Of a stretch of DNA of 64,000 nucleotides, positions 24,445 to 58,391 are shown one piece after another. The stretch's first letter is position 1, and every line of letters begins with the position of its first letter. A program made the translations under genes and the position numbers. The notes under the pieces were generated by a model, which saw only the letters and a program-made list of their open reading frames with translations, was not told the DNA's origin and did not search any database. The DNA is from Leptospiraceae bacterium (lineage in GTDB: Bacteria; Spirochaetota; Leptospiria; Leptospirales; Leptonemataceae), in NCBI GenBank assembly GCA_026005135.1, contig BPKM01000001.1:248001-312000 (forward strand), in the 5' to 3' direction.

Positions 24445-25997
24445 TTAAATTTTACTTTCTATTCCAAAAATAAGAGAATGTAATTGCATTGTTCTATTAT
24501 ATTTAAAATAAGAAGGTGATTCTTTTATTGCATGGAATAAAAACCAATCAGAGATAAATTTTGCTCTGGATAATTCAAATTCACTTTTATTTTTAAAGCC
24601 ATGTTCATAGCTAATATAAAATGTAGTTAAAGAAAATTTTTTTGATAAACCAATTGTTAGATGATGTTCAATAGTAAGGGTTAATAGAGGATGAAATCCT
24701 TCTTCAGGAGTAGGTAATTTTCCATAATTATATCCGAAAGATAATATTATGGATTTAAGGTCTTTTTCTATACCAAATAAATAAACAAGTTGGTTTTTCC
24801 AGTTTTGTCTGATTATTACTTGATTACTTTTGGTATTAAAAGGTGTAGTAAGAAAAGGTAAATCAGCATAAATTTTTATATTTCTAAAATAAGAATTCCA
24901 TAGAATGTAATTTATATCAAAATAGATTTTAAATGTATTAAAAATCATCTGGATACCTGTTCTATAAAATTCTGGAAAATTGATTCTGGCATAAGCTTTT
25001 TGTTCGAATATGTTTTGATTATTATTGTAATCAAAGAATTCATAAGATTTTATTTTTCCTTTAATTTTATAATAATTTGCTGAATGATAAGAAAAACCCC
25101 ATATTAATGAAAAAGAATATAAATGTATTTTCTGGCTTATTCCAAGAATTACAGAATGAGAAATATCATTTCCAGAAAATTCGAAGGATTGTTTAGGTTC
25201 TATAAAATAATTATTATAATCTTTTTTATGATTTTGCATTTTTAAAATTAAATAACTTGAATCATACCCTATTCCTAAATTAATATTTCTTAGTTTTAAT
25301 CCTAATCCTTGAATTATTGAAGGATTAGCCATTCGTACAATATAATTTTCTTTTATGAATTTATAATTTTCATCAAAACTTATAATATTTTCTAAATTAC
25401 CTCCTCCTCCAGCTTTAACAAGAAAAGAGATAGAATAAAATAATTTTTTACTAAGAGGAATACCATAACCTAAGGAAGGTAAATTTGCTTGAAGTAAATT
25501 TTTATAATGATTTAAATAAATTTTATTATTTTTTATATTTATAAATTGATCTTTATAGATTGATTGAACAAAATTATTTCTTTAAGAAAATTGGCTCTGT
25601 TGCATAAAAGTTAATTATTTTCTATTTATAAAAATATTTATCAACATTCTTAGACAATTTTTCATGGAATGAAAAAAGTATAGAATTTTTAAACATATGT
25701 TAGTGTTATTTGAAAAAAATTTCGCTTTTATAAAGAATTTTGCTTTAAAATGAGAGTTATGCAACAAAGCTAAGAAAATTCAAAAATAGAATAATTTTCT
25801 TCTAAGTAAAAAGAAAGATTGGCTGGATTTAGATAATTAGAAAAAATAGATTCTTTTGTTGAAGCTCCAGCACCAGCAATACCTGAAAATTTTGCACCAT
25901 AAGAAATCATAAAAAATCCATTAGTAGGATATAAAATTTCTGGAATGATCCATAGTATAATAAATATAATATATTGTTTCTTGTTCGAAGAATTCAT
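24445..25997 (-). pseudogene. FadL/OmpP1-like outer membrane protein, broken by a MITE
   Basis: The N-terminal 75 codons (25770-25997) encode a signal sequence and GFFMISYGAKFSGIAGAGAS…LNPANLSF, typical of OmpP1/FadL-type porins. The rest (from 25582 down to 24445) continues in the same frame through NLLQANLPSLGYGIPLSKKL and a run of amphipathic strands ending SLIFGIESKI. Removing the 178-bp insertion plus one 10-bp target copy restores a 454-codon frame, the normal size. One TAA codon remains at the junction; its third base lies outside the duplication and may be a later change. An ATG at 25332 is not a true start. It follows a Fur-linked cytochrome gene by 20 bases. Confidence 0.8.
25593..25770 (-). 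mobile_element. MITE-like element, copy 1, with 10-bp target duplication
   Basis: This 178-bp AT-rich element begins GGCTCTGTTGCATAA and ends TTATGCAACAAAGC, near-perfect terminal inverted repeats. TAAGAAAATT is directly repeated at 25583-25592 and 25771-25780. A second, inverted copy lies at 58165-58341 and aligns along its whole length. It encodes no protein. The ends resemble those of several IS families (GGCTTTGTTG-type), so a full-length transposase elsewhere probably moves it. It has inserted into the porin gene. Confidence 0.85.
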
Positions 25998-38410: not shown

Positions 38411-38473
38411 ATTAACGCAATTTAAAATTTTTTTATTGTTATCTTCCTGTAAAGAAAAATTTATCCATTGAAT

Positions 38474-39188
38474 ATGTTAATAATATATAGAGAAAAAAAA
38501 GAATTACAAAATCAAGAATTGTTAGTGTTGGAAAGAAATGAAATTAATCATATAAAAGCATTAAGATTAAAAGATGACGATGAAATTCTTGTTTCCGATG
38601 GAGAAGGAAAAGCATATAAATCAAAATTAAAATACCCTGATAAACTTATTATTAATTATAAAGAAATTATCTTAGAACAAAAAAAACAAAATGTAACAAT
38701 TTGTTCTGCTATCCCTTCTGGAAATCGCTTAGAAAAAATGATCGATATGGCAGTTCAACTTGGTATAACAAATTATATTCCAGTTATTTATCGTTATTCC
38801 GAAAGAAAAGATTTTTCTATTGAAAGAATAAAAAAAATCATAAGACAGGCATCTTCTCAATGTGGGAGATTAACGTTAGCAAATATTTATGCCCCAATTC
38901 GATTTCAAGATATATTTCAATATTATAAACATAAAATAATGCTATTTGCAGATAAAAATCCAGAACATAAAATTTCATTTAATGAATTAGTTCAAATCAG
39001 TAAAAGAAAATGAATTGGAAAATATTGCTATAATTATTGGACCAGAGGCTGGCTTCTCTAAAGAAGAAAAACAATATTTAAATCAGAATTTTAAGGGTTT
39101 AATATTAAATGAAAATATTTTACGAATAGAAACAGCTGTTATTAATGTATTATCTATTTTTCAATTTTTAAAAATGAATTATCAGTGA
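38474..39188 (+). pseudogene. rsmE: RsmE 16S rRNA m3U methyltransferase, frameshifted
   Basis: The 5' part (to 39013) encodes the RsmE N-terminal domain and the start of the SPOUT domain (ICSAIPSGNRLEKMIDMAVQLGI), then meets TGA. The next frame continues ENIAIIIGPEAGFSKEEK and LRIETAVINVLSIF, the conserved SAM-binding knot, to TGA at 39188. One A fewer in the AAAA run a few codons ahead of that TGA joins them into 237 aa, the family length. RsmE methylates U1498 of 16S rRNA. Either a mutation or a homopolymer error. The stop codon shares its last base with the 8-bp repeat of the adjacent cassette. Confidence 0.85.
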
Positions 39189-39195
39189 TTATTTT
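39188..39195. repeat. Left copy of 8-bp target duplication ATTATTTT
   Basis: ATTATTTT here and at 39885-39892 flanks cassette copy 1 exactly. Removing the cassette and one repeat would leave the rsmE stop and the chemoreceptor stop directly abutting, a natural convergent arrangement. Confidence 0.7.
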
Positions 39196-39884
39196 ATAAG
39201 CTTTCAAAGAAAGCCATATAATTTATAGTTCCTATTAACTTTGCTTCTAAATTGTTATTTTATAATAAAAAAATTTGATTTTATTATATTTTTTTAGTAA
39301 GTTTTTTAATAAAAATTAGACTATAATTATTGATGGCTACCTATATAAGAAAGAATATACAAAGTCCTAACGAAGAACTAGAAGAATCAAGCAATACGAC
39401 TATTTTACACTTTATGATTTATACTCCATATAAAGAAGATTTACAGAATTTAAGAAATCAGCATTCCAGCTATTCGGATATGTTTTTGTTTTTAATTTCT
39501 AAATACATAGAAAGATTAAAAAAATTAGCAAATCAAAAGAAAACCAGTAAAAAAATTTATCAGATAGTATGTAATGATTATGAACACTATTCTATAAGAG
39601 TAAGTCAGAATATTCATCAATTATTAAAGGATATATCCGAGATGACGGGATATAGTGTAAGTCATATTATAAGGCTACTAATAGAATGGGAATGTTATAG
39701 AAGGTTTGATGATAAGGTATTTCTATTGAGGGTACCGTTAAGGGAGATTGGCAGTGAATTTGTAACAACTATTACAGAAATCAGGATAGAGCATCGATTT
39801 TACAGGGCAAGGGAACTGGTAGAAGAAGACGTTGAAATATTATGTGCTTAAAATAATTTACGAAAATATAAATTGATCGCTTAC
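39196..39884 (+). mobile_element. Single-gene TIR cassette, copy 1
   Basis: A 689-bp unit that starts ATAAGCTTTC and ends GATCGCTTAC (inverse GTAAGCGATC), imperfect terminal inverted repeats. It is flanked by the direct repeat ATTATTTT (39188-39195, 39885-39892). A second copy at 49235-49922 matches along the whole length, including non-coding ends, and stops matching at the same points. The only gene is the 172-aa DNA-binding-like protein. The left end also holds a small hairpin, GCTTTC–AAA–GAAAGC (39200-39214). No transposase is present, so another enzyme would have to move it. Confidence 0.7.
39333..39851 (+). CDS. DUF1564-like tandem ribbon-helix-helix protein, copy 1
   Basis: The 172-aa product starts at the ATG at 39333; an upstream TTG in frame is not needed. 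Two halves each show a short strand followed by two helices: TILHFMIYTPYKEDLQNLRNQ…SDMFLFLISKYI (about 22-64) and HYSIRVSQNIHQLL…MTGYSVSHIIRLLIEW (about 84-118). The second half closely resembles a ribbon-helix-helix DNA-binding fold. The overall plan recalls DUF1564 proteins of Leptospira from memory. TATAAT at 39322-39327 ends 5 bases before the ATG and there is no Shine-Dalgarno, so the mRNA is probably leaderless. Five residues differ from copy 2. Confidence 0.75.
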   Translation: MATYIRKNIQSPNEELEESSNTTILHFMIYTPYKEDLQNLRNQHSSYSDMFLFLISKYIERLKKLANQKKTSKKIYQIVCNDYEHYSIRVSQNIHQLLKDISEMTGYSVSHIIRLLIEWECYRRFDDKVFLLRVPLREIGSEFVTTITEIRIEHRFYRARELVEEDVEILCA

Positions 39885-39885
39885 A

Positions 39886-42008
39886 TTATTTTAATTCAAA
39901 AAATTTCATAATATTTTGTAATTTTTTGATGTACTCTTTCGTTTGTTTTGTGGGTTCTGGTAGTTTTTCTATATAAGTTAAATGTTCTATAAATTCACTT
40001 TGAATTATCTTGATTGAATCTTCCATCTTTTGATTATAAATATTTATATTTTTTAAATATGTTGAAAAATTTTTAATAGTAATTTCAAATTTTTCTATAA
40101 TGTTTTTAACATTTTGATTTTCTTCCATTAGATTGTTTTTAATTTTGATTATTTCTTCAATTACATCCTGTATAGTATTTAAATCAATTATAACACGATT
40201 AAAAAGTCGGCTTGTTTGTATTGCATTTTCGTATCCTTTCTTACTGGTTTCTTTATTATTTTCTACAATAGTTTGTATATCTTTTACATTTTGATCAATA
40301 CGATTGGATAGTTTAGAAATTTCTTCTGCAACAACAGCAAAACCTTTTCCGGCTTCTCCTGCTCTTGCTGCTTCTATCGAAGCATTTAATGAAAGTAAAT
40401 TTACCTGTTTAGAAATATCCTGTATAAATTTTACAATCTTCTGAATTTTATTAGAATTTTCGTCTAAATCTTTGATTATATTTTTTTGTTCTTTTAATAG
40501 GTTTTTTCCTATATTTGCTTCGTTTTTAGTTGAAGTATAGAGAGAAAGTAATTTTTGGATAGTATCATTCATATAATCGATTTCTTTATTTAGTAATTTA
40601 ATAGAATAAAAATAAGTATCTGTCATGGATAATTTATCCTCTAATTCGTTGAGAATAATCTTTGTATTTTGGTTTATATTTTTAATTGTAGAATAAATTT
40701 CATTTATTGTTTTTGTCACTTCTTCTGATTTTTTTTGGGTATCTTGAATTAAATCTTCATGAAAATTAAGTATTTTATTTAGTAATTCATTAATTAATAA
40801 AACTTCTCTTAGAAGTTGCGAAATACGTATCACATAATTTTCTAATTTTAATATTGTAATTCCAATTACACTATTAGGAATATTTCCATTATAAGGAACG
40901 GGTAATTTTCCTTGATAAATTTTATCAATAAATTGATTGATTATTCTTATTTGTTTTAAGTCCTTTCCATAATTCAATGTAATAATTGTACTACTTAAAA
41001 TTGCAATAGGTACTGCGATAAAAAAATTGATAAAAAAATTAAATTAATAGGATAGATAATTTCTAAAACTGGAATGAATAAAAAAATTTCTTTATTATCT
41101 AAATTATAGGATTTTAAAAAATAATCATTTTGATTGATGTAACTATTTTGTCATTGAAAGAGGAAATGGGAATCTACATTTACGTTCATGAATGGATTAT
41201 ATAATATTCTTTGATTTTCTTTTAATAAAATTTTATCTTTTAAAGAAGAAACATTTATTAGTTGTTTTAGAATTTCATCAGAAGTATTTAGATGATAGGA
41301 TTCTATCATAATGTTTAGTGTATTGTAATAACTTTTATAAGTATGTTTAATGGTATAATCTAATGAAAAATAATATCCAATTGTGCCTAATAGACCTGTT
41401 ATAAGGTTCATATTAATGAAAAGTTGCAAAAATAATCGAATCCTTAATTTAGGATAGCGAATAATTTCCGGAGAAAGACCAAAAAACTTTGTTATAGATA
41501 TAATATGATCAATGATTTTTCCTGTTAAGGTTTGTTGAATAATAAAATAAATACCACTAAAAAATAGCAATAAGCAAATAGAATAGGGAAAAAAATAAAG
41601 TTGATTTTTTAATAATAATACATTTAAAGTTAAATCCAATATAAGGATAAATAAAAAACGAATAAAAGAAAGAATAAAAAAATATGGATTAAAATGAATA
41701 AAAAAATGAAAGGATTTTAATAAATTAATTTTATTTTCCTCTGATAGTTCATTAAAATTATGTATTTTTTCAATTAAAGATATTTTATGTTTTAAATAAA
41801 ACTTCCATACTATCCAACTAATTAAAATATGGATGAAAAAAATTGCAAGAAAATAATTTATAATTACCTTTTGAGAGGGTAGTTCAGAAAAATAAAAGGA
41901 AAAATATATATTAAAATATAAATAAAAAGTTAAAATAATTAAAAATAAAGCTTCGTTTATTATATATATAGATTTTATACGAGATTGTAGTGTTAGATTT
42001 AAGGACAT
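39886..42008 (-). pseudogene. Methyl-accepting chemotaxis receptor, decayed
   Basis: The 5' part (41151-42008) starts with a good AGGAGAACCT site and encodes 285 residues with several membrane spans. It ends at TGA (41151-41153), but the same frame continues as DYFLKSYNLDNKEIFLFIPVLEII. A further one-base loss in one of two A7 runs (41020-41026 or 41032-41038) is needed to reach the frame of [17 protein letters not shown] and the signalling domain with [29 protein letters not shown]. With both repairs the protein is 707 aa. A nonsense change plus a frameshift points to genuine decay. The TTG at 40977 is not a real start. Confidence 0.85.
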
Positions 42009-58088: not shown

Positions 58089-58164
58089 TATTTCTATATA
58101 ATAAAATTTGCACTTATATAAAAAAATAAGTTTTTAAATCAAAAAAACGAAATAAAACATTCTT

Positions 58165-58341
58165 GGCTTTGTTGTATAACTCCCATTTGAAAGTAAAATC
58201 ATTTATAAAAGCAATATTTTTTTCATAATTACTAACAAATGTTTAAAAATACTTATTTTTTTCATATTACGAAAAATTGTCCGAGAATGTTGATGAATAT
58301 TTTTATAAATAGCAAATAATTAACTTTTATGCAACAAAGCC
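58165..58341 (+). mobile_element. MITE-like element, copy 2 (inverted relative to copy 1)
   Basis: A 177-bp element beginning GGCTTTGTTGTATAA and ending TTATGCAACAAAGCC aligns in reverse complement with the element at 25593-25770 over its full length. No clear target duplication is visible. It lies in the gap between the EtfD-like gene and the convergent lpd gene and interrupts nothing. It has no coding capacity. Confidence 0.8.
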
Positions 58342-58391
58342 TATTTTCTTAATAAAAAAAACTTATAGTTTAATCCTTGAATAAAAATCAC

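Follow-up and report, generated by a model that had tools for sequence, protein, structure and literature searches.

A multicopy cassette with IS66-type ends and a selected gene for a predicted DNA-binding protein in a Leptospiraceae genome

A 689-bp cassette in the genome of a Leptospiraceae bacterium is probably a non-autonomous element of the IS66 family, that is, a mobile insertion cassette (MIC), and its only gene, which encodes a predicted DNA-binding protein, most likely serves the element itself. The genome (G000) is a draft of 3.42 Mb in 18 contigs and is 94% complete. The window, meaning the whole stretch of 64,000 nucleotides that was analysed, corresponds to positions 248001–312000 of its contig C1. 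About 46 related copies of the cassette, 88–96% identical, and additional relics are present in this 3.4-Mb genome.

At the window locus, the element occupies positions 39196–39884 and lies between two ATTATTTT octamers (39188–39195 and 39885–39892), which confirms the earlier description of a unit bounded by terminal inverted repeats (TIRs) with an 8-bp target duplication. The consensus ends of the copies are GTAAGCGATC...GATCGCTTAC and form a 12-bp perfect inverted repeat, GTAAGCGATCAA. The ends of the window copy itself are imperfect (ATAAGCTTTC / GATCGCTTAC), its left end being degenerate. The cassette separates rsmE from a convergent chemoreceptor gene, and both stop codons are in or beside the duplicated octamer, as the earlier note had described. 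It contains a single ORF (39333–39851, 172 aa) and has no match to a transposase. The TATAAT sequence at 39321–39326 is located 6 bases before the ATG of this gene, in a highly conserved stretch which is likely a promoter or operator. The features of the window are the following.

25587–25778, no strand: uninterrupted miniature repeat of about 190 bp, a related empty site for copies L094 and L091
39188–39195, no strand: left copy of the target duplication, ATTATTTT
39196–39220, plus strand: left end of the cassette, consensus GTAAGCGATCAAAGAACGCCGTATA, which corresponds to the right end of the genome's own IS66 element
39276–39335, plus strand: conserved non-coding stretch directly upstream of the gene (mean conservation 0.93–0.96 over 44 copies)
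39333–39851, plus strand: gene for the 172-aa protein, a predicted tandem ribbon-helix-helix (RHH) protein and divergent relative of DUF1564
39873–39884, plus strand: right terminal inverted repeat, TTGATCGCTTAC
39885–39892, no strand: right copy of the target duplication, ATTATTTT, which includes the chemoreceptor stop codon
49235–49922, plus strand: the other cassette copy of the window, with about 96% identity, an intact gene and flanking 8-mers that differ at 2 bases

The reading of the neighbouring rsmE (38468–39189) changes frame: one frame stops at 39013, and the C-terminal GPEAGF part lies in another one that runs to 39189. Either the gene is truly frameshifted or the assembly is wrong at this point.

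A DNA search of the genome returned at least 40 near-full copies (88–96% identity) and one short match. A 32-base pattern internal to the cassette has 46 matches, compared to none for the control, and a protein-level search added degraded relics with many stops. For the analysis of ends and duplications, 45 near-full copies were taken out with their flanks. Exact 8-bp duplications are present at fixed positions in 22 of the 45 copies, and in 27 if one mismatch is allowed. Among 1,976 shifted controls no exact pair of 8-mers was found, and 0.56% of the pairs have at most one mismatch; when the flank partners are swapped between copies, 0.35% of the 8-mers are identical. The 8-bp duplication is therefore not a chance feature. 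Duplication lengths of 5, 6, 7, 9 and 10 are represented by zero or one exact copy each. The target has an A+T content of 89%, and 32 of the 33 rebuilt sites that could be evaluated have no open frame of at least 100 codons across them, showing that the insertions are intergenic. The flanks switch abruptly at the TIRs, and the duplicated 8 bp vary from site to site.

The copies L094 and L091 are inserted in a repeat of about 190 bp which has its own inverted ends, GGCTCTGTTGCATAA...TTATGCAACAAAGCC. When the cassette is removed, their joined flanks align to uninterrupted versions of this repeat, at 25587–25778 and 58160–58354 in the window and at L023. The identity to the window repeat is 91% for L094 and 85% for L091, with 1–4 gap bases. 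On these alignments, the uninterrupted repeats are empty sites of a related rather than orthologous kind. The miniature repeat, which contains no gene, is present at many other sites of the genome besides these two positions of the window.

A profile search of genome contigs mostly returned matches that are 98–99.8% identical to G000 and are filed under unrelated hot-spring MAGs. In contigs that are nearly identical to G000 and come from the same species, filed in two such MAGs (KatS3mg002 and KatS3mg068), the insertions are at the same places as in G000 (L148/L006, L149/L012 and L150/L094); the near-identical contigs compared thus did not yield a strictly orthologous empty site from another strain. 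Two other contigs, L147 and L151, are partly near-identical to G000, and the DNA on one side of the cassette differs from G000; a rearrangement at the element or an error at a contig end are both possible. Neither was retained as a clean empty site, the flanks beside the element being rearranged. No relative of the cassette was detected in the viral contigs and plasmids searched.

The origin of the ends, which the earlier note had not assigned to the IS66 family, is indicated by a resident element. The genome has four full-length reading frames for IS66-family TnpC (PF03050, E 1e-86, plus other IS66 domains). The resident IS66 element is 1.79 kb long, has a single gene and the ends GTAAGCGCTCAATAAAG and GTAAGCGCTCAAAGAACAGCGTATA, and exact 8-bp duplications are found at 2 of its 4 copies. 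The left end of the cassette is identical to the right end of the IS66 element at 22–25 of 32 bases; for the right end of the cassette, the agreement with either IS66 end is limited to about 13 bases (12–13 of 16). Published IS66 ends start with GTAAGCG (PMC12888890) and the IS66 elements of Paracoccus produce 8-bp duplications (PMC3281130); the cassette has both features. A complete IS66 element encodes a TnpC with the IS66 DDE domain, and the cassette has no tnpC; it is therefore a derivative of IS66 and not an IS66 element. A genome-wide search with the left end returned essentially cassettes, IS66 copies and relics only, and essentially no elements with the same ends and another cargo.

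It is highly likely, from the comparison of the ends, that the cassette is moved in trans by the resident TnpC. This transposase would recognise the GTAAGCG ends common to both elements, and the insertions that it drives would leave the 8-bp duplications at AT-rich intergenic targets. The mobility presumed in the earlier note is thus supported by the approximately 46 copies, the 8-bp duplications, the related empty sites and the presence in the genome of an IS66 transposase whose element has similar ends.

Of the 45 copies, 36 have an intact reading frame; this count includes L025, in which the misalignment affects the stop codon only, and L097, which has an in-frame deletion. In pairwise comparisons of the 35 aligned intact copies, the mean pS is 0.27 and the mean pN is 0.033. 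The pN/pS ratio is about 0.12 at every divergence, including the closest pairs, in which 8% of the synonymous sites are still different, while neutral simulations give values of 0.7–1.1. The protein, and not only the ends, has therefore been selected. The divergence is 10–15% at third positions and in most of the non-coding DNA, and it reaches 21% in bases 1–25 of the left end. The nine broken ORFs have a pN/pS as low as that of the intact copies, so that the breakage seems to be recent and these copies are not clean neutral controls. Judged from these ratios, the protein has been under purifying selection on each lineage of copies.

The AlphaFold2 model of the protein, built with 14 homologues, shows strand-helix-helix modules at residues 22–67 and 83–125, with pLDDT mostly above 90 and disordered ends. 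One 172-aa gene with two such modules and no transposase is what the earlier note had described. The protein is thus predicted to be a single-chain tandem RHH protein, and as such it very probably binds DNA. In the PDB, the best Foldseek matches are relaxosome chains of the F plasmid, followed by VirC2 and AcaB; these matches are weak (best E 6e-3). They name the relaxosome complex rather than the subunit; TraY is the tandem RHH protein of that complex. Fold matches in a viral library include RHH proteins of archaeal viruses, with E values down to 1.8e-4, and PHROG 582, an Arc-like repressor, matches residues 25–124 (1e-5).

The proposed kinship with DUF1564 is supported, though the cassette protein alone matches PF07600 with 18 bits (E 0.0025), under the Pfam gathering cut-off of 25 bits. 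PF07600 matches 10 of the 14 family members, and several members from the same genus pass the cut-off. A comparison by hhalign with the bona fide DUF1564 proteins of the genomes G008, G014 and G015 gives a probability of 97.4 and an E value of 1.3e-11 over both modules. The cassette protein shares with DUF1564 the two-module layout, the YQ and GYS motifs and the profile match; it differs in being below the Pfam cut-off and in its position between IS66 ends, where no other member was seen.

A function for the element is the most likely explanation of the gene's conservation because purifying selection persists copy after copy, and this copy-by-copy selection points to the element because many copies per genome would be redundant for the cell. 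The protein could help the cassette itself, for example as an autorepressor, or as an accessory factor which binds the ends and favours the copy that encodes it. Such a role in the mobility or control of the element is proposed with less than even confidence. The more specific version, in which the tandem RHH protein would bind its own ends or promoter in cis, would recruit or control the foreign IS66 transposase and would be selected copy by copy, is more tentative still.

Alternatively, the protein of the same IS66-type cassette could be an ordinary passenger from which the cell benefits, as a regulator or Arc-like repressor, and which is maintained by selection at the level of the cell. In MICs and tIS66 elements, the passenger is usually a gene of use to the host (PMC3913671, PMC12888890). 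Purifying selection on the same protein family is also seen in relatives where it has no cassette ends, with a ratio of 0.21 in G008 and 0.19 in a subset of G003. However, more than 30 intact and near-identical copies in a single genome should be redundant, selection by the cell on each copy is hard to explain, and pN/pS is low in the closest pairs too. In a variant of this explanation, part of the selection may have taken place before insertion, in different cells or strains. A cell-useful passenger is considered rather unlikely.

It is quite improbable that the cassette is an addiction or silencing unit, whose protein would resemble an antitoxin or a repressor on which the cell depends. RHH folds are common among antitoxins and Arc-like repressors and there are weak RelB-type matches (E 0.007–0.013), but the cassette has no toxin gene and no other ORF, and identical copies would be redundant. 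Least credible of all is a reading of the copies as inert repeats or gene-conversion products, with a low pN/pS resulting from homogenisation: the second dispersed family L190–L197 has insert patterns which suggest exchange between copies, but gene conversion has no preference for synonymous over non-synonymous changes, the flanks change abruptly at the TIRs, and the 8-bp duplications vary between sites.

The cassette has counterparts among known systems. MICs, such as MIC231 of Bacillus cereus and others, have the inverted repeats of an IS, a passenger which replaces the transposase and a target duplication, and they are moved in trans by a related IS (PMC3913671). The cassette resembles them in the first three respects, and would resemble them in the fourth. 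It differs from MIC231 in its ends, which are of the IS66 and not the IS231 type, in its number (about 46 copies versus 4 of the helper IS), and in its passenger, a predicted DNA-binding protein under measurable purifying selection. Like the tIS66 elements with passengers, such as ISPa75 with fosZ, it belongs to the IS66 family and has repeats starting with GTAAGCG and a passenger gene, but ISPa75 keeps tnpA, tnpB and the DDE transposase, whereas the cassette has none of them (PMC12888890). It is also similar to high-copy MITEs such as MITECca01, of the IS982 family, in that both are lineage-specific, outnumber the parental IS and are mostly intergenic (PMC9769881); unlike these MITEs, the cassette bears a selected gene for a 172-aa protein. 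The predicted arrangement of two RHH modules in one chain would be shared with the relaxosome chains of the F plasmid, VirC2 and AcaB, but the identity is about 8–13% in the aligned part, and these proteins have roles in conjugation and regulation, not in transposition.

An intact and selected gene is unusual for such hitchhiking elements. The usual view is that the cargo of non-autonomous elements in bacteria is either inert DNA or a gene from which the cell benefits. A high-copy cassette with a gene for a predicted DNA-binding protein that is strongly selected in dozens of copies suggests that a hitchhiker which borrows the catalytic enzyme may evolve a control or accessory factor of its own. 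The cassette is a concrete system in which this can be tested, and it offers an initial clue to the function of the DUF1564 family; in the open-access library searched, no paper was found under the name DUF1564.

DUF1564 is present in 12 of 22 genomes of the bacterial family, with separate expansions in several of them. The idea that cassettes were a general route by which DUF1564 paralogues multiplied is not supported: no GTAAGCG ends were found at the homologues in six genomes (G001, G002, G003, G008, G014 and G015). PF03050, and with it the IS66 transposase, is absent from the same-genus genomes G001–G003, and cassettes were rejected as the carriers of the DUF1564 families of other genomes. 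On these comparisons, the cassette explains the copies in this genome and not the expansion of the family in general.

DUF1564-like genes form 16–40 dispersed copies per genome in G003 (L107–L126) and G008 (L170–L185), where the homology extends little beyond the gene, to about 50–90 bp upstream, with no inverted repeats. In G000 itself, another DUF1564-like family has at least 7 dispersed copies (L190–L197, on contigs C1, C2, C3, C4 and C6). It encodes a protein 29% identical to that of the cassette; its left boundary has a hairpin, TTTTAGTAAGCTTTTTACTAAAA, and it lacks IS66 ends. These copies share and swap insertions of miniature repeats, and the cassette copy L091 is nested in one such repeat.
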